A DNA stretch of 64,000 nt from Hansschlegelia beijingensis. GTDB taxonomy: Bacteria > Pseudomonadota > Alphaproteobacteria > Rhizobiales > Methylopilaceae. Of the stretch, positions 41,241 through 55,040 are shown piece by piece; positions within the stretch are counted from its first letter, which is position 1; each line of letters begins with the position of its first letter. Made by a program: the position numbers and the translations under genes. Under the pieces are notes generated by a model. That model was given only the letters and a program-made list of their open reading frames with translations, was not told the origin of the DNA and did no database searches. Where the stretch lies: assembly GCF_014196425.1 (NCBI RefSeq), contig NZ_JACIDR010000002.1, forward strand, positions 434,001 to 498,000. Direction: 5' to 3'.

Positions 41241-41366
41241 ATGGCGTCTCGCGATCCGTTCCTGTCTTCGATGCTGGCCCAGCCGGCGGCGCGCCGCGTC
41301 GCGGCCGCGGCGGCTGTCCTCGTGCTGCTGTGGGGGGCGATCGCATGGGCGATCGCGCTGCCATGA
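41241..41366 (+). CDS. 41-residue membrane peptide leading the metal transport operon
   Basis: The small frame starts at ATG 41241 with a strong AAGGAG six bases upstream. It encodes MASRDPFLSSMLAQPAARRV followed by a hydrophobic helix AAAAAVLVLLWGAIAWAIAL. Its stop TGA overlaps the ATG of the ATPase gene (ATGA, 41363-41366). The strong ribosome-binding site and coupling argue that it is real. The function is unknown; it may be a transporter accessory peptide or only a translation initiator for the ATPase gene. Confidence 0.65.
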   Translation: MASRDPFLSSMLAQPAARRVAAAAAVLVLLWGAIAWAIALP

Positions 41367-42148
41367 GCGTCGGCGCGATCAGCCTGCGCGACGTCACCGT
41401 CGCCTACGACCGCCACCCGGCCGTGCATCATCTTTCGGGCTCGTTCGCGCCCGGCAGCCTGACCGCGATCGCCGGGCCCAACGGGGCCGGCAAGTCGACG
41501 CTGCTCAAGGCCCTGATGGGTGAGCTGCCGGTGAGCGAGGGCGCGATCGACCGCGGCCAGCTCTCCGTGCGGGAGTTCGGCTATCTGCCGCAGGCCGCGG
41601 AGATCGAGCGGCGTTTTCCGATCTCGGTCGCGGACGCGGTGACGCTCGGCGCCTGGCGGCGCACCGGCGCGTTCGGGGGCATGACGCGCGGGATCGCCGA
41701 AGAAGCGCGGCGGGCGCTGAGCGCGGTCGGCCTCGAGGGCTTCGAGCGGCGCCATGTCGGTTCGCTCTCCGCCGGGCAGTTCCAGCGCGTGCTGTTCGCG
41801 CGCCTGCTGATGCAGGACGCCAAGGTCATCCTGCTCGACGAGCCCTTCACGGCGATCGACGCCCGCACCACGCGCGACCTGCTGGAGATCATCCGGCGCT
41901 GGCGCAGCGACGGCCGCACCGTGATCGCGGTGCTGCACGATTTCGAGCAGGTGCGGGCGCATTTCCCCGAGACGCTGCTGCTCGCCCGCGAGCCGATCGA
42001 ATGGGGCGCGACCGCCTCCGCCCTGTCCCCCGCGAACCTGCTGCGCGCCCGCGCGATGGCGGAAAGCTGGGACGAGGGCGCGCAGCCCTGCCGGCCGGAC
42101 GCCCATGCGCACGGTCACGCCCACGCCCGCGCGCACGACCACGCATGA
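41363..42148 (+). CDS. Metal (probably zinc) ABC transporter ATP-binding protein
   Basis: The 261-residue ATPase has Walker A GPNGAGKSTLLKALMG, signature SLSAGQFQRVLFARLL and Walker B VILLDEPFTAID. It belongs to the ZnuC/AztA manganese-zinc-iron group. The last 18 residues are His-rich (AHAHGHAHARAHDHA), a likely metal-holding tail. It starts inside the stop of the 41-residue peptide and overlaps the permease start by four bases, so the operon is tightly coupled. Confidence 0.9.
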   Translation: MSVGAISLRDVTVAYDRHPAVHHLSGSFAPGSLTAIAGPNGAGKSTLLKALMGELPVSEGAIDRGQLSVREFGYLPQAAEIERRFPISVADAVTLGAWRRTGAFGGMTRGIAEEARRALSAVGLEGFERRHVGSLSAGQFQRVLFARLLMQDAKVILLDEPFTAIDARTTRDLLEIIRRWRSDGRTVIAVLHDFEQVRAHFPETLLLAREPIEWGATASALSPANLLRARAMAESWDEGAQPCRPDAHAHGHAHARAHDHA

Positions 42149-43030: not shown

Positions 43031-43945
43031 ATGAACGCAGTGTCGAGGCTGTCCGCAGCCCTCCTGGCGGTCGCGGCGCTGTGCGCCCCGGCCGCCGCCT
43101 CCGCCGAGCCGCTGAAGGCGGTGGTGAGCTTCACGGTGCTGGCCGACGTCGTGAAGAACGTCGGCGGCGCGCATGTCGAGGTCCGCAGCCTGGTGCCGCC
43201 GAACGGCGATCCGCACGAGTTCGAGCCGGCCCCCGACCATGCCCGCGCGCTCAAGAACGCCGACGTCGCCTTCGTGGCGGGCGACGGGCTCGAGGGCTGG
43301 TTCGAGCGGCTCGCCAAGGCCGCCGGCTACAAGGGCCGGCCGGTCGCGGTCTCGGCCGGGGTGAAGACCGCGACCATGGAGGAGCACGGCGAGACGGTCA
43401 CCGACCCGCATGTCTGGAACAGCCCGTCCAACGTGCTGGTCTGGGTCGCCAACATCGAGAAGGCGCTGGCCGCGGCCGATCCGGAGAACGCCGCCGCCTT
43501 CAAGGCCAATGCGGCGCGCTATTCGGAGGAGCTGAGGGCGCTCAACGCCTATGGCCATTCGCGCTTCGACGCCGTGCCGCCGGAGAAGCGCAGGGTGCTG
43601 ACCAGCCATGAGGCGTTCGGCTATCTCGGGCGCGAATACGGCGTGACCTTCCTGTCGCCGCAGGGGATCTCGACCGAAGCCGAACCGTCGGCCGGCGGCG
43701 TCGCGGCCCTGATCCGGCAGATCAGGAGCGAGGGCGTGAAGGTCTACTTCCTGGAGAACTCCAACGATCCGCGGCTGATGCGCCAGATCGCCGAGGCGAC
43801 CGGCGCGCGGCCGGGCGGCGAGCTCTACCCGGAGGCCCTGTCGGGACCGGACGGGCCGGCGTCGACCTATCTGGCGATGATGCGCCACAACATCGACCAG
43901 ATCGCCGACGCGGTGGCAGCGCAGAGCGCAGCGCAGGCCCGCTAA
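43031..43945 (+). CDS. Metal ABC transporter substrate-binding protein (zinc type)
   Basis: The 304-residue periplasmic protein has a signal peptide (residues 1-25, PAAASAEP). Three likely metal ligands are His62 (GDPHEFEP), His127 (TDPHVWNSP) and His193 (LTSHEAFGYL). Histidine at the third place favours zinc over manganese, where glutamate is usual. It lacks the long His-rich loop of E. coli ZnuA and resembles the AztC type. The upstream Zur-like box agrees with zinc. Confidence 0.88.
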   Translation: MNAVSRLSAALLAVAALCAPAAASAEPLKAVVSFTVLADVVKNVGGAHVEVRSLVPPNGDPHEFEPAPDHARALKNADVAFVAGDGLEGWFERLAKAAGYKGRPVAVSAGVKTATMEEHGETVTDPHVWNSPSNVLVWVANIEKALAAADPENAAAFKANAARYSEELRALNAYGHSRFDAVPPEKRRVLTSHEAFGYLGREYGVTFLSPQGISTEAEPSAGGVAALIRQIRSEGVKVYFLENSNDPRLMRQIAEATGARPGGELYPEALSGPDGPASTYLAMMRHNIDQIADAVAAQSAAQAR

Positions 43946-43997
43946 CCGCCTGTCAACGCGGCCGCCTCACGCTGCCCCGAACAGGCAGGGGGGCGGC

Positions 43998-45266
43998 ATG
44001 GCCGCTGAGGTCGGCGAGAGGCGCGGCAGGCGGCTGGAACGGGCGGCGGCGGCGCTGTTCGTCGCCGCGCTGACGGCGCTCATGCTGGTCTCCATCGCCG
44101 ACAAGCCGTTTCCGTTTCGCGGGGCGGACGAGCAGGGCCACTTCTCCTATGTGGCCCACCTCTCCCGGAGCGACCGCCTGTGGCCCGACCTTGGCGCCAT
44201 GCCGCTCTACGATCCGGCCGGCGCGCCGACCGGGCGGGCGAACTTCATCAATCATCCGCCCCTGTTCTACTGGACCGCGCTGCCGCTCCATGACGCGCTC
44301 GCGGCGCGCCATGCGGACTTCGGGTGGTTGAGGGTCTATCCGGCGGCGCTCGCGACCGCGGCCTTCGCGGCGATCGCAGCCTTCGGGCTGCGCATGCGGA
44401 TCGGCGCCGCGGGCTTCGCCGTGCTGTTCGCCGGCGCGGCGTTCCTGGATTTCGCGGCGCTCGCGGGCGCCTTCAGCAACGACCAGATGGCGATGCTGGG
44501 CGGCGCGCTCGCCTGCCTCGGGGCGGCGCGGCGGGTCTCGTCGAGCACGGACCGCGCAGGCCTCGCGCTGCTGCTGGCCGGCGTCGCGCTCTGTTCGGTG
44601 AAGCTCACGGCGCTGATGCTGGCGGGCGGCTTCGCGGTCCTCTGCCTGCTGCTTGCGCCCGGCCGGAAGCCGGACCTGAAGGGACTCGCCGCGCTGGCGG
44701 CGGCCGGCGTGATCCTGGCGGTTCCCTACCTGATCCTGTGGCGAAGCTACGGCTCGCCGGCGCCGAGCACCGCCGGCCAGACGCAGATGCTCCGGGACTA
44801 CATCGCCGAATTCGGCTGGGAAAAAGTCCCGCGCGTGGGCCTCGCCGCCTATCTGGCCGACGCGCCGTCGCTGTTCGCGGTGCAGCTCGGGCGGAGCTTC
44901 GCTCACCTCGCGCTGCTGATGGCGATGTGCGCGACGGCGATCGTGGCCTTTCTGCCCGGCGAGAGGGAGGCGCGGCCGGCGGCGACGACGCTGGTGCGGG
45001 CCGCGACGCTGGCGACGGTCGCGACGCTCGCGGTCCACCTCGCCTTCGCCTACCAGCGCTACGCCGAGCATGGCTGGCTCGGCGATCTTTATCCCCGCTA
45101 CTACTTCCCGCTGCTCGCCGCCTACGGCCTGAGCTGGTCTCTCGCCGCCCGTCGGTTTGCGGGACGCCTGGCTCCCGCGGGGCGGGCCAGCGGCGGGGTG
45201 ACGCGGCCTCGGTTCAGCCCGCGGACTCATCCTGAGGCACGCGGCCGTGGACGAGGTCGTGGATGA
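43998..45266 (+). CDS. Membrane glycosyltransferase candidate, GT-C type
   Basis: The 422-residue protein has about ten membrane segments. The first periplasmic loop holds FRGADEQGHFSYVAHLSR, an acidic pair in the place where GT-C enzymes that use lipid-linked sugars have their catalytic residues, and FINHPPLFYWTALPLHD, a motif shared with ArnT/PMT-like and DUF2142 proteins. Donor and acceptor are unknown. The C-terminal 30 residues are Arg/Gly-rich and overlap the convergent metallopeptidase gene by 53 bases, so the true end or a recent 3' extension deserves attention. Confidence 0.68.
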   Translation: MAAEVGERRGRRLERAAAALFVAALTALMLVSIADKPFPFRGADEQGHFSYVAHLSRSDRLWPDLGAMPLYDPAGAPTGRANFINHPPLFYWTALPLHDALAARHADFGWLRVYPAALATAAFAAIAAFGLRMRIGAAGFAVLFAGAAFLDFAALAGAFSNDQMAMLGGALACLGAARRVSSSTDRAGLALLLAGVALCSVKLTALMLAGGFAVLCLLLAPGRKPDLKGLAALAAAGVILAVPYLILWRSYGSPAPSTAGQTQMLRDYIAEFGWEKVPRVGLAAYLADAPSLFAVQLGRSFAHLALLMAMCATAIVAFLPGEREARPAATTLVRAATLATVATLAVHLAFAYQRYAEHGWLGDLYPRYYFPLLAAYGLSWSLAARRFAGRLAPAGRASGGVTRPRFSPRTHPEARGRGRGRG

Positions 45267-46299
45267 AGCCGAGCTTGTGGATCACAGGCTCGGTCAGGAC
45301 GAACGGGTACGGGTCGGGCGCGCCCATCGACCTGTTCAGCGCGTTCAGCGCCGCCGACAGGGCGAGCCAGGACTCGGCGATGTTCGCCATGGTGGTGTTC
45401 GGCGAATAGACGTCGAAATTGATCATCGCGGTGAGGAGGTCGTCGCGGTCCTCGCGCGGGTTGACCACGAAGCCCCAGGCCCGCCCGGTGTCGAGCGTGT
45501 CGGTGATGTGGAAGTAGTGCGCCCAGGTCTCGGCGAAGCCCTCCCACGGATGCGCGGCCGCGTAGGACGACACGAAGTGCAGCTGCCAGTCGGGCTTGGG
45601 CCCGTTGGCGTAGTGCCGCTTCAGCGCCTCGCCGTAATCCTGCGAGTCGTCGCCGAACACGGCCCGGCACGCCGACAGCCTGCCGCCGTCGCGCACCAGC
45701 CGGTCCCAGTACCAGTGGCCGATCTCGTGCCGGAAATGGCCGAGCAGCGTGCGGTAGGGCTCGCCCATCGCGGTGCGCCGGCGCTCGCGCTCGGCGTCGT
45801 CGGCCTCGGCGAGCGCGATGGTGATCAGGCCGTTGTCGTGCCCGGTCATGACGTGGCCGCCATTCTCGGGATCGTGGCTGAGGAACTCGAAGCCGAGCCC
45901 TTCGGGATCTTCTTCGCGCGTCACCAGCGGGAGCTTCAGGCGCAGCAGCGTGTAGAACAGCCGCCGCTTGGCGATCTCCATCTTCTGCCAGAGCGCGACG
46001 TTGGAGGCCTCGCCCAGATTGGGCACGACGAGGTTGTGCCGGCAGGCGAGGCAGAAGCCGCCCTCGCCCTCGCCCGGCACCAGCCAGTTGCAGGCGCCGT
46101 GCGTATAGTTCTCGCAATACCGCCAGGGCCTGCCGTCCGCGTGGCGGCCGACCGAGATCCAGCCGCCGTCGTCGGCCGGCTCCAGCGCCAGCATCGCGTT
46201 GGTCTCCGGCTCATAGCCGAGCGCGTGGTTGCAGCGCTCGCACAGGACGTTCTCGAAGAACACCACCTGGTCGCAGGACGGGCAGGAAAACAGTTTCAT
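45214..46299 (-). CDS. Putative zinc-binding metallopeptidase with zinc ribbons (COG4307-type)
   Basis: The 361-residue protein starts with two zinc-binding cysteine groups: Cys6, Cys9, Cys20 and Cys23 (CPSC...CERC), then Cys62, Cys70, Cys83 and Cys86. The peptidase domain carries HEIGHWYWD with His191, Glu192 and His195. GFAETWAHYFHITDTLDTG supplies a likely third ligand. No signal peptide is seen, so it should be cytoplasmic. Such proteins recur beside the transglutaminase, ATP-grasp and alpha-E genes, and here it diverges from that operon with 160 bases between starts. Confidence 0.87.
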   Translation of the reverse strand: MKLFSCPSCDQVVFFENVLCERCNHALGYEPETNAMLALEPADDGGWISVGRHADGRPWRYCENYTHGACNWLVPGEGEGGFCLACRHNLVVPNLGEASNVALWQKMEIAKRRLFYTLLRLKLPLVTREEDPEGLGFEFLSHDPENGGHVMTGHDNGLITIALAEADDAERERRRTAMGEPYRTLLGHFRHEIGHWYWDRLVRDGGRLSACRAVFGDDSQDYGEALKRHYANGPKPDWQLHFVSSYAAAHPWEGFAETWAHYFHITDTLDTGRAWGFVVNPREDRDDLLTAMINFDVYSPNTTMANIAESWLALSAALNALNRSMGAPDPYPFVLTEPVIHKLGFIHDLVHGRVPQDESAG

Positions 46300-46458
46300 C
46301 GAACGTCCTTTGCACGCGGCGGTTTGTGTCCGGCGCCCGACAATGCCGCGGGACGTTAAACAGTTCCGGACATCCCGCGCCGGCCGCGGCGATCCGCCTT
46401 GCTGCGCCGCGAAAGCCCACTAAGCTGCACGCCGCCAACCCGGAGCGCCGCGCTACGC

Positions 46459-49400
46459 ATGTCGATCCTCGCAGCTCTCCACCATGTCACGCACTACAAA
46501 TACGATCGCCCGGTGGTTCTCGGGCCGCAGGTCATCCGGCTGCGGCCGGCGCCGCATTCGCGCACCCGCGTGCCGTCCTTCTCGCTGAAAATCTCGCCCG
46601 CGAACCACTTCATCAACTGGCAGCAGGACCCGTTCGGCAACTACCTCGCCCGGGTCGTCTTCCCCGAGACGACCACGGAGCTGAAGATCGAGGTCGATCT
46701 TCTCGCCGACATGACGGTCTACAACCCGTTCGACTTCTTCCTGGAGGAGGGCGCGGAGACCTGGCCCCTCGCATATGAGGAGACGTTGCGGACCGACCTC
46801 GCGCCCTATCTCGAGACGCCGCCGGCCGGGCCGGAGCTGCAGGCCTTCCTCTCCGGCCTCGACCGCAGCGAGCCGCGCACCATCGACTTTCTGGTCGGCC
46901 TCAACCGGACCGTCTCGCAGGCGGTCCGCTACCTGATCCGCATGGAGCCCGGCGTGCAGACGCCCGACGAGACGCTCCGGAAGGCGTCGGGCTCCTGCCG
47001 CGACTCCACCTGGCTGCTGGTCCATGTGCTGCGCAATCTCGGCTTCGCGGCGCGCTTCGTCTCCGGCTACCTGATCCAGCTGAAGCCCGACCTCGTCGCC
47101 CTCGACGGGCCGGCCGGCACCGACCACGACTTCACCGACCTGCACGCCTGGACGGAGGTCTATCTGCCGGGCGCCGGCTGGATCGGGCTCGACCCCACCT
47201 CCGGCCTGCTGACCGGCGAAAGCCATGTGCCGCTCGCGGCGACCCCGCACTACCGCTCGGCCGCGCCGATCTCGGGCGCCGCCGGCTATGCGGAGGTCGA
47301 TTTCGACTTCTCCATGTCGGTCGCCCGCATCGCGGAGCGGCCGCGCGTCTCCTATCCGTTCTCCGAGGAAAGCTGGAAGGAGCTCGACCGGCTGGGCGAG
47401 GCGGTCGACGCCGAGCTCGTGCGCAACGACGTGCGGCTCACCATGGGCGGCGAGCCGACCTTCGTGTCGATCGACGACTTCCAGTCGCCCGAGTGGAACG
47501 CGGACGCCACGGGACCGCAGAAGCGGGCGCTGGCGGACGAGCTGATCCGCCGGCTGCGCGACCGCTTCGCGCCCGGCGGCTTCCTGCATTACGGCCAGGG
47601 CAAGTGGTATCCGGGCGAGACCCTGCCGCGCTGGACCTTCTCGCTGTACTGGCGGAAGGACGGCAAGCCGATCTGGCGGAACGCCGAGCTGATCGCCCGC
47701 GAGCGCGCCTCGAACGCCGCGGACGCCCGCGCCGCCGAGGCGCTCGCGACCGACGTCGCCACGCGGCTCGGCGTGCCGGCCGCGAACGTCACGGCGGCCT
47801 ATGAGGATCCGGCGTACTGGCTGACGCGCGAGGCGCAGCTTCCGGAGAACGTGGACCCCAGCAATTCCAGGCTCGCCGACCCGGAGGAGCGCGCCCGCAT
47901 CGCCCGCGTGTTCGACCGCGGGCTCAATGCGCCGACCGGCTACGTGCTGCCGATCCAGCCCTGGCAGGCCGAGCCGGCGATCCGCTGGGTGTCGGAGCGC
48001 TGGTCGACGCGCCGCGACAAGCTGTTCCTCACCCCCGGCGACAGTCCGGTCGGCTACCGCCTGCCGCTCGGCTCGCTCTCCTATCTGACGAAGTCCGAGT
48101 TCCCCTACTTCTTCCCGGCCGATCCGACGGGGCCGCTCGTCCCGCTGCCGGACCCGGACCAGATCGCGCTTGGCCACGAGCAGCGGCAGATCCACGTTCC
48201 GGAGCAGCCCTCGACCGCCGCGGCGCTGCCGGCCGCGCAGGACGAGATCGTCGGCTATGTGCGCACGGCCCTGACCGTCGAGCCGCGCGACGGCAAGCTT
48301 TCGGTGTTCATCCCGCCGATGGAGTCGATCGAGGCCTATCTCGATCTGCTGACGGCGATCGAGGGCGCCGCCGAGGCGCAGGGGCTGCCGATCCAGATCG
48401 AGGGCTACGCGCCGCCGCCCGACCCCCGCGTCAACGTCATCCGGGTCGCGCCTGATCCGGGCGTCATCGAGGTCAACGTGCATCCCGCCGGCTCATGGCG
48501 CGAGGCGGTGGCGATCACCACCGGCGTCTATCAGGAGGCGCGGCTGTCGCGGCTCGGCGCCGACAAGTTCATGATCGACGGCAAGCATTCCGGCACCGGC
48601 GGCGGGAACCACGTCGTCGTGGGCGGCGCGACGCCGCTCGACAGCCCTTTCCTGCGCCGGCCGGACCTGCTGAAGTCGCTGATCCTGCACTGGCAGCGCC
48701 ATCCGTCGCTGTCCTACCTGTTCTCCGGCCTGTTCATCGGACCGACCAGCCAGGCGCCCCGCGTCGACGAGGCCCGCCATGACGGGCTCTACGAGCTCGA
48801 GATCGCGATGGCGAACGTGCCGCCGCCGGGCGCCGGCGCGCCGCCGCCGCCCTGGCTGGTCGACCGGCTGTTCCGCAACCTGCTGATCGACGTCACCGGC
48901 AACACCCACCGCTCCGAGATCTGCATCGACAAGCTCTATTCCCCGGACGGGCCCACCGGCCGGCTCGGGCTGGTCGAGTTCCGCGGCTTCGAGATGCCGC
49001 CGGACGCGCGCATGAGCCTCGCGCAGCAGCTGCTGATCCGGGCGCTGATCGCCCGCTTCTGGAAGAAGCCGGCGGAAGGCTGCTTCGCCCGCTGGGGCAC
49101 GCAGCTGCACGACCGCTTCATGCTGCCGGCCTTCGTGTGGGCGGACTTCCTCGACGTCCTCGCGGACCTCGGCTGGGCCGGCTATCCGCTGCGGCCCGAA
49201 TGGTTCGAGGCGCAGGCCGAGTTCCGCTTCCCGTTCTGCGGGCGGATCGAGCGCGAAGGGCTTGCGCTGGAGCTGCGGCAGGCGCTCGAGCCGTGGCACG
49301 TGATGGGCGAGACCGGCGCGATCGGCGGCACGGTCCGGTTCGTCGACTCGTCCGTCGAGCGGCTGCAGGTGAAGCTCCAGAACGCCGATCCGGCGCGCCA

Positions 49401-49782
49401 CGCCGTCACCTGCAACGGCCGCCTCGTGCCGCTCGCTCCCACGGGCGTCAGCGGCGAACTGGTCGCCGGGGTGCGCTTCAAGGCGTGGCAGCCCGCGACG
49501 GGCCTGCATCCCACCACGCCGGTGCACGCGCCGCTGACCTTCGACATCTACGATCGCTGGTCGAAGCGCTCGATCGGCGGCTGCGTCTACCACGTCGCCC
49601 ATCCGGGCGGCCGGAACTACGACTCGTTCCCGGTGAATTCATACGAGGCGGAGGCGCGCCGGCTTGCCCGCTTCCAGGACATCGGGCATACGCCCGGGGC
49701 CTTCGAGCCGGCGCGCGAGCCGCTCAACGCCCAATTCCCGCTCACGCTCGATCTGAGGCGGCCGGCGGGCCTCACGGGCTGA
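46459..49782 (+). CDS. Transglutaminase-like/DUF2126 protein
   Basis: The 1107-residue protein joins a papain-like transglutaminase domain to a DUF2126 domain. The triad is Cys180 ([10 protein letters not shown]), His229 ([12 protein letters not shown]) and Asp245 (GLDPTSGLL). DUF2126 starts near residue 300 with [20 protein letters not shown], then [38 protein letters not shown] and [20 protein letters not shown]. No signal peptide is visible. Such domains are thought to cut or transfer peptide bonds. ATG 46459 is preferred to an upstream in-frame start at 46399. It heads a plus-strand operon. Confidence 0.9.
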
Positions 49783-49851
49783 CCGCTCGCGGTCGCCAAG
49801 TTTCGCCGGCGGGCGGCATGACGCCGTCCGCTCGCCCTGGAGCCCCAGCCG

Positions 49852-52317
49852 GTGCCCCGATCGTCAACCGCCGACGCGCCGACGCCATCCGTTCACGACG
49901 AACGGCCGTCCGCGGGCCTGCTCCGCGGCTACCGGCCGCCGGCGGGCGTCTTCGACGAGGCGGTCGACGACATGGGCGGCGTGCGGCCGCACTACCGCCC
50001 GCTGATCGCCGCGCTCGCCGCGATGGACGAGCCGGAGCGGGAGCGGCGCTTCTCCAGCGCCGCGCAATATCTGCGCGAGGCCGGCGTCTACTATCGGGTC
50101 TATGGCGGCCCGGAGCGCGGCGGCGAGGACGTCCGGGCCTGGCCGCTGGCGCAGCCGCCGCTGATCATCGCGCAGCAGGAATGGACCGAGCTCGCCGCCG
50201 GCCTCGCGCAGCGCGCGCTCCTGCTGGAAAGGCTGATCGCGGACCTTTATGGCGAGCGCCGGCTGCTCACGGACGGCGTCCTGCCCCCGGCGCTGCTCGG
50301 GCGGAATCCCGAATTCCTGCGGCCGCTCGCGAACCAGGCCGCATCCGGATCGCCGCTGATCCGCTTCATCGCGGTCGATCTCGGCCGCGGTCCCGACGGC
50401 CGCTGGTGGGTGCTCGGCGACCGCGCCCAGGCGCCCTCCGGCGCGGGCTTCGCGCTGGAGAACCGCGTCGCGACCGCGCGCGCCTTCCCGGAGCTGATCC
50501 GCGACCTGAAGGTCCAGCGGCTCGCCCGCTTCTTCCAGAAGTTCCGCGAGACCCTGAACGCGCTCGATGACGGCCGCGGCGCGCGCGTCGGCGTGCTCTC
50601 GCCCGGGCCGCACAACGAGACCTATTTCGAGCACGCCTATCTCGCCCGCTATCTCGGCTTCCTGCTGCTCGAGGGCGGCGACTTGGCGGTCCACGGCTCC
50701 TCGGTGGTCGTCAGGACGGTCGACGGCGCCAAGCCCATCCGGGTGCTGTGGCGCCGCCTCGACGCGGATTTCGCCGACCCGCTCGAACTGCACCCGCGTT
50801 CGCGCATCGGAACGCCCGGCCTCGCGCGGGCCGTGCGGGACGGCGCGGTCGAGATGGTCAACGCGCTCGGATCGGGAATCCTCGAGACGCGCGCGCTGCT
50901 CGCGTTCCAGCCGGCGCTCGCGCAGGCCCTGCTGGGCGAGGAGCTCCGGCTGCCCACGGTCGCGACCTGGTGGTGCGGCCAGGAGGCCGAGCGGGACTAC
51001 GTCAAGACGCATCTCGAGCGGCTGTCGATCGCGCGCGCCTTTCCGCAGACGGTGGAGGACGAGGAGCATCGTCGCCCGCTCGATCTCGGCATGCGGCGCA
51101 CGCCGTCCGAACGGCTGCTCGACGACCTTGCGAACGATCCCGGAAACGTCGTCGCGCAGGAGCTCGTCGGGCTCTCGACGGCGCCGATGTTCTCCGAAGG
51201 CAGGCTTGAGCCGCGGCCGGTGACGCTGCGGGTTTACCTCGCGCGCCACGCGGATGGCTGGAGCGTGATGCCGGGCGGCTTCGCCCGGGTGTCGAGCTCG
51301 ACGGACCCGCTCGCGGTCACGATGCAGTCCGGCGGCCGCTCGGTGGACGTGTGGGTGACGTCGGACCGGCCGGAGCGGCCGGTCTCCCTGCTCGGGACCG
51401 CGCAGGGCTTCGCCCGCCGGCTGCCCAGCGCTCCCCCGGCCCGCGCGGCGGACAATCTGTTCTGGCTCGGCCGCTATGTGGAGCGCGCCGAGGCGGCGAC
51501 CCGGCTCGTCCGGCTGCACGCCGCGCGGCTCGCCGAGGGCGAACGGCGCGGCCCCCTCGAGGCCGAAGTGGCGGAGCTGCTCGCCGGGATCGGGGTGGAG
51601 GTGGCGCTGGGCGACCCGGCCGAGGGGCTGCTCAGGCGGGTGCGCGCGGCTTTCGAGACCGCCTCGCGCATCCGCGACCGTTTCTCGCCCGACGGCTGGC
51701 GCGTGCTGGGCGATCTGGTTGACCTGATGGAGCGGCGGCTCGCGCAGGACGAGCCCGAGGACCTGCCGGGGCTCGCGAGCGAGGTGCTGATCCGGCTGTC
51801 GGGATTCACCGGGCTCGTCCGCGAGAACATGTACCAGTTCACCGGCTGGCGCTTCCTGCAGGCCGGCCGGCTGCTGGAGCGCGGCCAGCTGACGGCCCGG
51901 ATCGCGGCGGCCCTGACCCGCGACGAGCCGCCCGAGGGCGCGCTGGAGGCGCTGCTCGAATTCGCCGACAGCCGCATCACCTACCGGCGGCGCTACTCCG
52001 TCACCCTGTCGCGCGAGACGGTGGTCGACCTGACCGTGCTCGATCCGCTCAACCCGCGCTCGATCGCGTTCCAGGTGAACGGCTTCAAGACCCTGCTGGA
52101 CGAACTGCCCGGCATGCGGCGCGGCGAGACGCCCGCCGACGTGGTGCGCCGCGCCGCCCGGCTTCAGGTGCGGCTCGCGACCGGCGACCTGACCGAGGTC
52201 AACGAGCTGTTCCTGCAGCGCGTCGCGACCGATCTCGGCGACATCTCCGACCTTCTCGCCCAGCAGTTCTTCAGTGCGGCGCCGGGCGTCCAGACGGAGC
52301 GGTCGGAAAGCGAATGA
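49852..52317 (+). CDS. Circularly permuted ATP-grasp/alpha-E fusion protein
   Basis: The 821-residue protein joins two families often encoded separately. Residues about 60-480 form a circularly permuted ATP-grasp ligase: VRPHYRPLIAAL, LIIAQQEWTELAAGLAQRA, DLGRGPDGRWWVLGDRAQAP, VGVLSPGPHNETYFEHAYLA and GRLEPRPVTLRVYLA. Residues about 530-815 form the alpha-E helical domain, beginning ARAADNLFWLGRYVERAEAA and including FRFTG-like ENMYQFTGWRFLQAGRLLER. The start is GTG 49852, 69 bases after the preceding stop. The ligase should join an amine to a carboxylate using ATP; the substrates are unknown. Confidence 0.9.
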   Translation: MPRSSTADAPTPSVHDERPSAGLLRGYRPPAGVFDEAVDDMGGVRPHYRPLIAALAAMDEPERERRFSSAAQYLREAGVYYRVYGGPERGGEDVRAWPLAQPPLIIAQQEWTELAAGLAQRALLLERLIADLYGERRLLTDGVLPPALLGRNPEFLRPLANQAASGSPLIRFIAVDLGRGPDGRWWVLGDRAQAPSGAGFALENRVATARAFPELIRDLKVQRLARFFQKFRETLNALDDGRGARVGVLSPGPHNETYFEHAYLARYLGFLLLEGGDLAVHGSSVVVRTVDGAKPIRVLWRRLDADFADPLELHPRSRIGTPGLARAVRDGAVEMVNALGSGILETRALLAFQPALAQALLGEELRLPTVATWWCGQEAERDYVKTHLERLSIARAFPQTVEDEEHRRPLDLGMRRTPSERLLDDLANDPGNVVAQELVGLSTAPMFSEGRLEPRPVTLRVYLARHADGWSVMPGGFARVSSSTDPLAVTMQSGGRSVDVWVTSDRPERPVSLLGTAQGFARRLPSAPPARAADNLFWLGRYVERAEAATRLVRLHAARLAEGERRGPLEAEVAELLAGIGVEVALGDPAEGLLRRVRAAFETASRIRDRFSPDGWRVLGDLVDLMERRLAQDEPEDLPGLASEVLIRLSGFTGLVRENMYQFTGWRFLQAGRLLERGQLTARIAAALTRDEPPEGALEALLEFADSRITYRRRYSVTLSRETVVDLTVLDPLNPRSIAFQVNGFKTLLDELPGMRRGETPADVVRRAARLQVRLATGDLTEVNELFLQRVATDLGDISDLLAQQFFSAAPGVQTERSESE

Positions 52318-53207
52318 TCTACGACCTCTCGCTCAACATCGCCTACGACTACCCGGCCGCCGTGAAGGAGGCCCGCCACGTCCTGCGGGTCCGCCCGCGC
52401 GAGCTCGAGGGCCAGAGCGTGCGGTCGACGCGCGTGACGGTGACGCCGCAGCCGGACGAGGCCTGGCGCGAGCTCGACTTCTTCGGCAACGCGCTCGACC
52501 AGCTGCTGATCCTGCCGGGGCACGACGCCTTCTCGGTGGCCATGCAGGCGCGGGTCGAGGTCCGCCGCGCGCTTCCCGACCTGGAGGCGACCCCGACGGT
52601 CGCCGAGCTGGCCGCCGCCGCCGCCACGGCGCGCGACTGCGGGCCGGCAGGGCCGATGCATTTCCTCGGCGACAGCCGGATGGCGCGGAAGAGCGAGGCC
52701 GTCACGGCCTATGCGCGGGATCTGATCGATCCGGCCTCGCCCGCGGGCGAGGCGGTGCTGGCCTTCGCCTGCAGCATGAAGGCGGATTTCCAGTTCGCGC
52801 CGGGCGCGACCACGGTCGACACCCCGCTCGAGGAGGCGTTCGCCCGGCGCGAGGGCGTCTGCCAGGACTTCGCGCATGTGATGATCGCCGCGCTGCGCGG
52901 CGTCGGAGTGCCGGCCGCCTATGTGAGCGGCTTCCTCAGGACGTCGCCGCCGCCGGGCCGCCCGCGCCTCCAGGGCGCAGACGCGATGCACGCCTGGGTC
53001 GACGTCTGGCTGGGGCCGGATCTCGGCTGGCGGGGCTTCGATCCCACCAACGGCGTCACGGTGCTGGACGACCACGTGGTCGTCGCGGTCGGGCGCGACT
53101 ATTCGGACGTCGCGCCGATCGACGGGGTGGTGCTGACCGCCGGCTCGCAGAAGACGAGCCACTCGGTCGACGTCATCCCCGTCGGGGAGCTGGCGAGCGA
53201 GGCCTGA
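52314..53207 (+). CDS. Transglutaminase family protein
   Basis: The 297-residue protein has the N-terminal beta domain (IAYDYPAAVKEARHVLRVRP) and a transglutaminase core with Cys183 (EGVCQDFAHVM), His226 (DAMHAWVDVWLG) and Asp243 (GFDPTNGV). It matches the bacterial transglutaminase-like cysteine peptidases that accompany alpha-E genes. Its ATG overlaps the stop of the ATP-grasp/alpha-E gene (ATGA), so the two are coupled. The stop lies inside a 20-base palindrome shared with the end of typA. Confidence 0.92.
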   Translation: MIYDLSLNIAYDYPAAVKEARHVLRVRPRELEGQSVRSTRVTVTPQPDEAWRELDFFGNALDQLLILPGHDAFSVAMQARVEVRRALPDLEATPTVAELAAAAATARDCGPAGPMHFLGDSRMARKSEAVTAYARDLIDPASPAGEAVLAFACSMKADFQFAPGATTVDTPLEEAFARREGVCQDFAHVMIAALRGVGVPAAYVSGFLRTSPPPGRPRLQGADAMHAWVDVWLGPDLGWRGFDPTNGVTVLDDHVVVAVGRDYSDVAPIDGVVLTAGSQKTSHSVDVIPVGELASEA

Positions 53208-53220
53208 GGGGCCTCAGGCC
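53201..53220. terminator. Palindrome across two convergent stop codons
   Basis: Arms GGCCTGAGG (53201-53209) and CCTCAGGCC (53212-53220) form a perfect hairpin around GG. It contains the TGA of the transglutaminase gene and the complement of the typA stop. No T-run follows on either strand, so it is at best a weak or Rho-assisted bidirectional terminator, though the tight two-base loop may be extruded poorly. Confidence 0.55.
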
Positions 53221-55040
53221 ACCTCGGCTTCGGCCTTGCGGCTCTCGCGCTTGCGATCGTTCGGGTCGAGCAGGCGCTTGCGCAGCCGGATCGACTTCGG
53301 CGTCACCTCGACCAGCTCGTCGTCCTGGATCCAGGCGAGCGACCGCTCCAGCGTCATCCGGATCGGAGGCGTGAGCCGGACGGCCTCGTCCTTCGACTGG
53401 GTGCGGATGTTGGTGAGCTTCTTGCCCTTGAGGACGTTGACCTCGAGGTCGTTGTCGCGGCTGTGGATGCCGATCAGCATGCCCTGATAGACCTTCCAGC
53501 CCGGCTCGATGATCATCGGGCCGCGGTCCTCGAGGTTCCAGAGCGCGTAGGCCACCGCCTCGCCCGGCTCGTTGGCGATCAGCACGCCGTTGTTGCGGCC
53601 GGCGATCTCGCCCTTGTACGGGCCGTAGGAGTGGAATAGGCGGTTCATGATCGCCGTGCCCTTGGTGTCGGTCAGCAGCTCGCCCTGGTAGCCGATCAGG
53701 CCGCGGGTCGGGGCGTGGAACACCAGCCGCAGCCGATTGCCGCCCGAAGGCCGCATCTCGAGCATCTCGGCCTTACGCTCCGACATCTTCTGCACGACGA
53801 TGCCGGAGTGCTCCTCGTCGACGTCGATCACGACCTCTTCGATCGGCTCGACCAGCTCGCCGGCCTCGTTCCGCTGCATCACGACGCGCGGACGCGACAC
53901 GCCGAGCTCGAAGCCCTCGCGGCGCATGGTCTCGATCAGGATCGCAAGCTGCAGCTCGCCGCGGCCGGAGACGATGAAGCTGTCCTTCTCGGCCGTCTCC
54001 TCGACCTTGAGCGCGACGTTGCCCTCGGCCTCCTTGAGCAGGCGGTCGCGGATGACGCGGCTCGTCACCTTGTCGCCTTCGGTGCCGGCGAGCGGGCTGT
54101 CGTTGACGAGGAAGGTCATCGACACGGTGGGCGGGTCGATCGGCTGCGCCTGGATCGGCTCGGTGACGGCCGGGTCGCAGAAGGTGTCGGCGACCGAGGC
54201 CTTCACCAGGCCGGCGATCGAGACGATGTCGCCCGCCTCGCCGACGTCGATCGGCTGCCGCTCGATGCCCCGGAAGGCGAGGATCTTGGAGACGCGGCCG
54301 GTCTCGACGAGGTTGCCCTCGCGGTCGAGCACCTTGACCGTCTGGTTCGGCTTCACGGTGCCGGACGCGATGCGGCCGGTGATGATGCGGCCGAGGAACT
54401 GGTTGGCCTCGAGCAGCGTGCCGAGCATCCGGAACGGGCCTTCCTCGACCTTCGCCTCCGGCACGTGCTTGAGGATCAGGTCGAACAGCGGCGCGAGGCC
54501 CTCGTCCTTCGGGCCTTCCGGGGAGGCCGCGAGCCAGCCGTCGCGGCCCGAGCCGTAGAGGATCGGGAAGTCGAGCTGCTCGTCATTGGCGTCGAGCGCC
54601 GCGAACAGGTCGAACACCTCGTTGATGACCTCGGAGGCGCGGGCGTCGGGACGGTCGACCTTGTTGACCGCGACGATCGGCTTGAGGCCGATCTTCAGCG
54701 CCTTCGACACCACGAACTTGGTCTGCGGCATCGGGCCTTCGGCCGCGTCCACCAGCACGATCACGCCGTCGACCATCGACAGGATGCGCTCCACCTCGCC
54801 GCCGAAGTCGGCGTGGCCGGGCGTGTCGACGATGTTGATGCGGGTGTCCTTCCAGACGACCGAGGTCGCCTTGGCCAGGATCGTGATGCCGCGCTCCTTC
54901 TCCAGGTCGTTGGAATCCATGACGCGTTCAGCGACGCGCTGGTTCTCGCGGAACGAGCCGGATTGCTGCAGGAGCTTGTCCACCAGGGTCGTTTTGCCGT
55001 GGTCGACGTGCGCGATGATCGCGATGTTGCGAAGCTTCAT
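53214..55040 (-). CDS. typA: Translational GTPase TypA/BipA
   Basis: The 608-residue ribosome-associated GTPase has the G1 motif AHVDHGKTTLVDKLL, the switch region ERGITILAKATSV, DTPGHADFGGEVERI and NKVDRPDAR. The later TypA-specific stretches FMVNDSPLAG-like TFLVNDSPLAGTEGDKV, NRLFHSYGPYKGEI and TRGLIGYQGELL are present. It supports ribosome assembly and growth at low temperature in other bacteria. It is monocistronic on the minus strand, 6 bases from the convergent transglutaminase gene. Confidence 0.97.
   Translation of the reverse strand: MKLRNIAIIAHVDHGKTTLVDKLLQQSGSFRENQRVAERVMDSNDLEKERGITILAKATSVVWKDTRINIVDTPGHADFGGEVERILSMVDGVIVLVDAAEGPMPQTKFVVSKALKIGLKPIVAVNKVDRPDARASEVINEVFDLFAALDANDEQLDFPILYGSGRDGWLAASPEGPKDEGLAPLFDLILKHVPEAKVEEGPFRMLGTLLEANQFLGRIITGRIASGTVKPNQTVKVLDREGNLVETGRVSKILAFRGIERQPIDVGEAGDIVSIAGLVKASVADTFCDPAVTEPIQAQPIDPPTVSMTFLVNDSPLAGTEGDKVTSRVIRDRLLKEAEGNVALKVEETAEKDSFIVSGRGELQLAILIETMRREGFELGVSRPRVVMQRNEAGELVEPIEEVVIDVDEEHSGIVVQKMSERKAEMLEMRPSGGNRLRLVFHAPTRGLIGYQGELLTDTKGTAIMNRLFHSYGPYKGEIAGRNNGVLIANEPGEAVAYALWNLEDRGPMIIEPGWKVYQGMLIGIHSRDNDLEVNVLKGKKLTNIRTQSKDEAVRLTPPIRMTLERSLAWIQDDELVEVTPKSIRLRKRLLDPNDRKRESRKAEAEVA

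Follow-up and report, generated by a model that had tools for sequence, protein, structure and literature searches.

A conserved block of DUF2126, ATP-grasp-like and transglutaminase-fold genes in Hansschlegelia beijingensis as the candidate half of a two-operon ligase/hydrolase system

Using a stretch of 64,000 nucleotides from Hansschlegelia beijingensis (Methylopilaceae; contig NZ_JACIDR010000002.1, positions 434,001 to 498,000, of NCBI RefSeq assembly GCF_014196425.1), which we refer to as the window, we analyzed a locus at 45214-53207 that encodes a zinc-ribbon metallopeptidase and, divergently from it, an operon of three genes: a transglutaminase-DUF2126 gene, a gene for an ATP-grasp-like domain fused to an Alpha-E domain, and a second transglutaminase gene. 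Comparison with homologues shows that the locus is widespread and conserved and belongs to a predicted ligase/hydrolase system. An earlier description made from the letters of the DNA alone (the sequence-only reading) had proposed these four genes as one peptide-ligase/peptidase locus; our translations and Pfam searches bore out the genes, their domains and their coordinates, and both Cys-His-Asp triads and the HEIGH motif are present as it had given them. The features are as follows.

45214..46299, minus strand: zinc-ribbon metallopeptidase, COG4307-like, with a HEIGH motif (Pfam Peptidase_Mx, E 3e-103, and Zn_ribbon_DZR_6)
46300..46458, no strand: divergent intergenic gap, without an above-chance sigma-54 or sigma-70 consensus site
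46459..49782, plus strand: transglutaminase-fold and DUF2126 (putative amidoligase) protein (Pfam DUF2126, 1320 bits; Bact_transglu_N; Transglut_core)
46996..47193, plus strand: span of the Cys180-His229-Asp245 triad of the first transglutaminase-fold domain, invariant in 22/22 and in 53/53 aligned sequences, the window protein among the 53
49852..52317, plus strand: ATP-grasp-like/Alpha-E fusion (Pfam CP_ATPgrasp_2, 433 bits; Alpha-E, 188 bits)
50158-51294, plus strand: circularly permuted ATP-grasp-like domain of the fusion
50416..50424, plus strand: degenerate ExN position of the fusion, Gly189-Asp190-Arg191 (Glu-Asp-Asn in stand-alone homologues)
51436-52272, plus strand: Alpha-E domain of the fusion
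52314..53207, plus strand: second transglutaminase-fold protein, Cys183-His226-Asp243 (Pfam Bact_transglu_N, Transglut_core)

The domain matches and triads of these four genes are far beyond chance, and no NCBIfam model matched any of the four proteins. The most likely start of the DUF2126 gene is the ATG at 46459, at which homologues align and which fits the Cys180/His229/Asp245 numbering; a TTG at 46399 opens a longer frame (46399-49782). A gap of 69 bp separates the DUF2126 gene from the fusion gene, which in turn overlaps the second transglutaminase gene by 4 bp. Inspection of the four translations by eye revealed no hydrophobic N-terminal segment, and the ligase/cysteine-hydrolase block looks cytoplasmic.

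Our comparison of this locus with those of related genomes demonstrated that three of the genes form a conserved block and that the metallopeptidase is a looser associate. The sample of relatives comprised 101 genomes, of which 41 contain DUF2126 and 60 do not, including the genome under study (3.66 Mb in 12 contigs, with two genes for CP_ATPgrasp_2 and one for DUF2126). Of the named relatives found, Methylopila sp. Yamaguchi is nearest, at 84% identity. In the 40 other DUF2126-positive relatives, the fusion adjoins DUF2126 in 38 (one of these with ATP-grasp and Alpha-E in separate frames, and one with fragments) and the second transglutaminase adjoins it in 37. Among the 80 most similar named loci, DUF2126 is fused to a transglutaminase domain in all 80, and 69 of the 74 with at least 4.5 kb downstream continue with the fusion and then the transglutaminase. 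The spacing in these named loci has a median of 63 bp before the start of the homologous fusion (range -28 to 686) and of 4 bp before the second transglutaminase (range -3 to 254), so that the conserved small substrate open reading frame for which the sequence-only reading proposed a search would find little room inside the block, either in these loci or in the 69 bp gap of the window; the DNA outside the block was not searched for one. Mean column identity is highest for the DUF2126 protein (70%), followed by the fusion (51%) and the second transglutaminase (44%, in an alignment that contains one copy from the second operon described below). Loss of catalytic residues across homologues, which the sequence-only reading had named as evidence against a single system, is not what we observe for the two transglutaminase domains, since both triads are kept in the aligned homologues, with C183 in 15/15 sequences of the second transglutaminase type, the window protein among them. 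One such second transglutaminase, at L041:11551-12693, carries a long Pro/Gln/Ala-rich C-terminal tail.

The conserved block leaves out the metallopeptidase, which adjoins DUF2126 in just 15 of 41 relatives (the genome under study, 12 others of its genus, and two from another family), and which we rejected as a core gene on this count. It does co-occur with DUF2126, being present in 27/41 DUF2126-positive relatives compared with 5/60 negative ones (Fisher p 1.5e-9 with ancestry ignored, and with G013 and G049, whose matches fall below the cut-off, scored as without). In the named loci, we located the metallopeptidase in 9 of 80, and HExxH is kept in eight of these nine. The exception is that of Aurantimonas marianensis, encoded beside DUF2126 on the minus strand (L075:8724-9803), which has HVVGH and may be inactive.

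The sequence-only reading had taken the ATP-grasp/Alpha-E fusion to be the ligase of this locus, and our analysis of its active site goes against this. In stand-alone homologues, the motif LED-N-x-R-x-PSG contains the Glu and the Asn in 133/133 sequences, compared with no Asn and at most one Glu in 72 fused copies (the residues printed cover 71 of the 72). When the set is widened to 121 fused copies (119 with Alpha-E in the same frame), Asn is present in 0/121, Glu in 1/121 and the two together in 0/121. The stand-alone loop VK-x(4)-SGGYG is similarly affected, with its Lys kept in 5/121 fused copies and its Tyr position a gap in 107/121, and of the 64 polar positions listed with 95% or higher conservation among the stand-alone proteins, the fused ones are marked as different at 35. 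Glutathione and glutathionylspermidine synthetases suggest, by analogy, that the Glu-x-Asn pair and the Lys/Gly loop serve in metal and ATP binding. The fold itself is retained, since the AlphaFold model of the fusion (predicted local distance difference test, pLDDT, 85; predicted template modelling score, pTM, 0.81) still matches the structure of a stand-alone relative, 3n6x, and glutathione-synthetase-type enzymes. An active circularly permuted ATP-grasp ligase would be expected to combine this fold with the Glu/Asn pair and the Lys/Gly-rich loop of the stand-alone homologues, a combination that the fusion, as judged from its residues, does not have. Lacking residues that are invariant in its stand-alone relatives, the ATP-grasp-like domain is probably a pseudoenzyme and no ligase. 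For the Alpha-E half, sequence searches gave a chance-level match alone (E 0.51), and in the fold search the 50 matches listed for the fusion were all ligases.

An intact ATP-grasp is encoded in a second operon. The sequence-only reading had correctly stated that an Anbu-type proteasome-like peptidase is not in the window, and had missed that the single Anbu match of this genome lies elsewhere, on contig C1, in an operon (L004:7383-11493) that encodes a stand-alone ATP-grasp, Alpha-E, a transglutaminase and Anbu. The ATP-grasp and Alpha-E proteins of this Anbu operon are homologous to the two halves of the fusion, and the ATP-grasp is intact. The transglutaminase (L004:9793-10626) reads GTAQD where most others read GVCQD, i.e., its catalytic Cys is replaced by Ala, with His and Asp kept. 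A leucyl/phenylalanyl-tRNA protein transferase gene (Leu_Phe_trans, L004:2687-3355) lies approximately 4 kb upstream of the Anbu operon.

In our survey, nearly all genomes with DUF2126 also contain an ATP-grasp of stand-alone length, and the window locus appears to depend on such a working relative encoded elsewhere in its genome. CP_ATPgrasp_2 is present in 41/41 DUF2126-positive relatives compared with 32/60 negative ones, with two copies in each of the 41 and one in each of the 32, and all 41 have one long, fused-type copy and one short, stand-alone-type copy (in G007, the two copies are in four pieces). A second draw of 299 genomes from across the phylum, 84 DUF2126-positive and 215 negative, gave CP_ATPgrasp_2 in 84/84 compared with 77/215 (with scores under the family cut-off for a few of the 77). 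The two DUF2126-positive sets share seven genomes, for a union of 118. The fusion itself scores as CP_ATPgrasp_2, and the telling point is a copy of stand-alone length, which is found in 115 of the 118; this count includes G298, which has a long open frame with a separate Alpha-E, and leaves outside it G007, where the genes are broken, and G133 and G303, for which length was not printed. In addition, G158 contains a complete DUF2126, and the sole CP_ATPgrasp copy found there is of stand-alone length, so that the fusion looks dispensable in this genome. Besides G133 and G158, three further genomes have a single CP_ATPgrasp copy; we do not lean on them, as DUF2126 lies at contig ends in G144 and G189 and is split in G356. 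A self-contained peptide ligase/peptidase system with the fusion as its ligase, as originally proposed, would fit the domain content and the conserved gene block, and we regard it as very improbable given that no fused copy has both Glu and Asn, that a second, stand-alone-type copy accompanies DUF2126 in all 41 relatives, and that G158 pairs a complete DUF2126 with a copy of stand-alone length alone.

The two gene sets are also found together. In 14 phylum-level genomes, one locus holds both DUF2126 and, next to it, a stand-alone ATP-grasp/Alpha-E pair; these come from 60 stretches picked by hand, and we claim no rate from them. In addition, Pseudooceanicola pacificus (L104) has the whole Anbu operon placed divergently beside the DUF2126 operon. 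This physical linkage supports the view that the two sets belong to one system. Of the 14 merged stretches, three contain Anbu and two contain a transglutaminase clearly of stand-alone type. G099, in which we found no Anbu, has genes for a stand-alone ATP-grasp and Alpha-E immediately upstream of its DUF2126 operon (L041:2413-5090). In two DUF2126-negative genomes (L263 and L265), the metallopeptidase lies beside Anbu and the stand-alone ATP-grasp/Alpha-E genes, with no transglutaminase found in the stretch.

These distributions bear on a further explanation, protein tagging for turnover, in which ligases would add a peptide tag, the transglutaminases would transfer it or take it off, and tagged proteins would be degraded by Anbu and the metallopeptidase. 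Anbu is present in 36/41 DUF2126-positive relatives, and the metallopeptidase co-occurs as described above. The Anbu of the genome under study starts MTYCV and keeps, by eye, the candidate Thr, Asp and Lys residues of the Yersinia protein (PMC6376114; for this and all papers cited by PMC number, we refer to the parts available to us). Set against this, Anbu was not found in 5/41 relatives and is outside 11 of the 14 merged stretches (the rest of those genomes was not searched for it), and Yersinia Anbu cleaved no tested peptide in the published assay (PMC6376114). On balance, we consider tagging for turnover rather unlikely.

The loss of the catalytic Cys in the Anbu operon is not restricted to the genome under study. 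We took 73 relatives and 60 phylum-level genomes, 133 in all, that have a stand-alone ATP-grasp and scored the adjoining transglutaminase, judging genomes with extra stand-alone copies (e.g., G221 and G375) from one copy. The Cys is lost in 15 of 58 DUF2126-positive genomes and in none of the 51 negative ones (Fisher p 3e-5). A further 19 genomes (15 DUF2126-positive, G099 among them, and 4 negative) have no stand-alone transglutaminase in the fetched stretch and were scored as absent, not as losses, and two DUF2126-positive and three negative genomes could not be assigned: in G041 and G093 a contig end interferes, the assembly of G007 is of low quality and its genes are broken, and G170 and G374 have a transglutaminase of ambiguous type. 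The transglutaminase domains of the DUF2126 operon keep their Cys, as seen in the second sample for 14/14 first and 13/13 second transglutaminases, two of the latter (from G170) being of ambiguous type. On the ATP-grasp tree, the losses form ten clades, all of them DUF2126-positive, and branches leading only to DUF2126-positive tips make up 39% of eligible length (p approximately 7e-5 under a rough null that uses midpoint rooting and branches leading to at most four scored tips). Within the clade of G006, G009 and G011, from the genus of the window, the Cys-less protein is under purifying selection, with a ratio of nonsynonymous to synonymous substitution rates (dN/dS) of approximately 0.06 at dS 0.27-0.43.

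It could be argued that both the co-occurrence and the Cys losses come from shared ancestry and genome size, and not from function. DUF2126 is clustered in certain families, the branch-length null is rough, and the second sample alone is not significant (3/21 compared with 0/21, p 0.23); the first sample alone gives p 3e-4, with ancestry ignored. Ten loss clades, all in DUF2126 lineages, speak against this account, as does the finding that the two gene sets have physically merged in families far apart, and we judge it improbable.

With the fusion probably inactive, DUF2126 is the predicted ligase of the window operon, a role that the sequence-only reading had missed and that the Pfam label of the family, putative amidoligase, already suggests. 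The model of the whole transglutaminase-DUF2126 protein (mean pLDDT 76, pTM 0.70) has one clear fold match, to the transglutaminase-like structure 3isr (E 8.7e-13). Ranked below the transglutaminases are weak Foldseek matches in the DUF2126 part to YbdK (E 0.056, probability 0.85), gamma-glutamylmethylamide synthetase (GmaS, E 0.074) and Mycobacterium tuberculosis glutamine synthetase (GlnA, E 0.15), which weakly suggest that DUF2126 is glutamine-synthetase-like by fold. The DUF2126 part also has 119 polar residues that do not vary across 53 sequences, as would be expected for an active enzyme and without being proof of one.

Taking these observations together, the explanation that we favor, and hold to be moderately probable, is that the window contains one half of a two-operon system for amide conjugation and deconjugation. 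DUF2126 would be a glutamine-synthetase-like, ATP-dependent ligase held in cis with a transglutaminase-fold cysteine hydrolase or transferase, and the second transglutaminase would be another such enzyme. The fusion would be a dead paralogue of the active stand-alone ATP-grasp and Alpha-E pair of the Anbu operon, acting as an adaptor or regulatory subunit and not as a ligase. We propose that the transglutaminase of the Anbu operon can lose its Cys, as it has in this genome, because the window operon brings two intact ones; such replacement is not obligatory, since the Anbu-type Cys persists in 43 of the 58 DUF2126-positive genomes. Trimming or turnover would fall to the metallopeptidase and Anbu as optional peptidases, and the chemistry may be a temporary amide conjugation, e.g., of a gamma-glutamyl type, of an amine or peptide that the cysteine enzymes later open. 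What stands of the sequence-only reading is a conserved ligase/cysteine-hydrolase block of the kind that ATP-grasp amidoligase genomics predicts; the identity of the ligase and the place of the metallopeptidase do not stand, and an Anbu operon elsewhere in the genome seems to belong to the same system. Our comparisons establish the gene block and its conservation, the intact triads, the key residues missing from the fusion, the second operon, the Cys losses and the co-occurrence; from these we infer an inactive fusion, joint action of the two operons, the direction of the chemistry, the role in nitrogen limitation and the class of substrate. A more general proposal is that DUF2126 systems are obligate enzyme-pseudoenzyme assemblies spread over two unlinked operons, in which the dead fusion pairs with the live stand-alone pair, the DUF2126-operon transglutaminases relieve the Anbu-operon one, which would then repeatedly become a pseudoenzyme, and the Anbu peptidase is an optional part of one machine; to this proposal we give even chances.

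The setting of this two-operon system is perhaps nitrogen starvation, by analogy with a related cluster in Burkholderia cenocepacia H111. The genes I35_5080-5083 of this strain encode DUF404/407, DUF403, transglutaminase-like and large transglutaminase-like proteins, are strongly lowered in an ntrC mutant under nitrogen limitation (by -8.2, -9.4, -9.4 and -6.0), and are NtrC/sigma-54 dependent (PMC5491218). DUF403 is now Alpha-E, and DUF404/407 became CP_ATPgrasp_1 (PMC3597751). Anbu is also reported to go up in nitrogen-limited Pseudomonas putida (PMC5666114, PMC6376114).

Several points weigh against the two-operon explanation. A search for the sigma-54 pattern TGGCACNNNNNTTGCW in the window and in L004 gave nothing above chance: a site with two mismatches in the divergent gap (46299-46314) is within the expected number, and no sigma-70-like site was found in 45100-53400. 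That I35_5083 is a DUF2126 protein is taken from its description alone (PMC5491218). The glutamine-synthetase fold rests on the weak matches given above, to a model with pLDDT 76, and a profile comparison (hhalign) of DUF2126 with 30 GCS2 proteins of relatives, using shallow profiles, gave a probability of 0.1% and E 0.46, no better than five unrelated control profiles. We know of no substrate, product or ligase activity for any member of these families. The stand-alone ATP-grasp of Yersinia releases phosphate from ATP in a test that could not separate ligation from ATP hydrolysis alone, and the same study detected no specific interaction between proteins of the Anbu operon (PMC6376114). Turning to the Cys losses, most DUF2126-positive genomes keep the Cys, and the second sample is not significant alone. 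Cys-less pairs other than those of the window's genus evolve fast, at 44-54% identity (44% for G038/G083, compared with 89% for their Alpha-E proteins), which also fits plain decay, and the Anbu-type transglutaminase is faster than Alpha-E in intact pairs too.

The BipA gene follows the second transglutaminase on the opposite strand, at 53214. On the other side, a predicted membrane protein, unmatched in Pfam and NCBIfam, is encoded at 43998-45266 on the plus strand, in a frame that overlaps the 3′ end of the metallopeptidase gene; neither this open reading frame nor that at 43953-45230 on the minus strand had a match in the 22 loci searched, and we rejected both as parts of the system. Near the zinc metallopeptidase, we also observed a substrate-binding protein of a metal ATP-binding cassette (ABC) transporter (43031-43945), which is AztC-like (zinc; below the curated cut-off), and near that an ABC ATPase (41330-42148). 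These neighbors bear on the possibility that the locus has no part in recycling and instead synthesizes a small non-ribosomal peptide or a modified amino acid. The presence of two folds of ligase type alongside two of Cys transferase type in a single conserved block speaks for it. BipA and the membrane protein look unrelated to such a pathway, a weak objection drawn from the window neighbors alone, and we think biosynthesis of this kind unlikely.

Anbu operons, with their ATP-grasp, Alpha-E and transglutaminase genes, were first recognized around 2008-2009 and, to our knowledge, have no established function. The pattern described here turns an open-ended prediction into a few direct experiments, in that it points to testing DUF2126 together with the stand-alone ATP-grasp/Alpha-E pair and not the fusion alone, singles out one subunit as a probable pseudoenzyme, and proposes growth under nitrogen limitation. 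The assay of amide formation by the fusion that the sequence-only reading proposed is predicted to be negative.

Among known systems, the closest comparison is with the peptide-tagging system that Iyer et al. reportedly predicted in 2009, composed of an ATP-grasp, a glutamine-synthetase-like ligase, which we take to be DUF2126, an Anbu-type peptidase and an alpha-helical domain. The window shares with it the circularly permuted ATP-grasp, Alpha-E, DUF2126 and transglutaminase families; it differs in that the set is split here over two distant operons, with no Anbu in the window operon, a degenerate ATP-grasp in the DUF2126 operon and a Cys-less transglutaminase in the Anbu operon. Escherichia coli glutathionylspermidine synthetase/amidase and trypanothione synthetase pair a ligase with an opposing cysteine amidase, and such enzymes are among the fold matches of the fusion; unlike in these enzymes, the cysteine domain in the window is transglutaminase-like and is fused to DUF2126, not to the ATP-grasp. 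The genome under study has one operon of the published Anbu type (ATP-grasp, Alpha-E, transglutaminase and Anbu; PMC5666114, PMC6376114), from which the window operon differs in lacking Anbu, containing DUF2126 and having ATP-grasp and Alpha-E fused. The B. cenocepacia cluster resembles the genes described here in its ATP-grasp (stand-alone), Alpha-E, transglutaminase-like and large transglutaminase-like proteins, and differs in that no fusion or Anbu is named in the part of that report available to us (PMC5491218). The Rlo and Rim systems of Pseudomonas also combine an ATP-grasp protein with a peptidase, Rlo having an inactive transglutaminase in addition, whereas their peptidase is aspartic, their transglutaminase is a membrane protein, RloC is likened to RimK, and the available part of the source mentions no DUF2126 or Alpha-E (PMC12239564); as peptidase and architecture differ, we rejected membership of the Rlo system. 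Our searches of the open-access literature listed no paper with the term DUF2126, and the parts available to us mention neither a dead fusion nor a missing Cys in the transglutaminase of the Anbu operon, although Iyer et al. 2009 might mention either. Compared with these systems, what seems to be new is the evidence for a dead ATP-grasp, for its occurring together with a live one (here in the Anbu operon), and for a loss of the transglutaminase Cys that, in the genomes examined, occurs only together with DUF2126.

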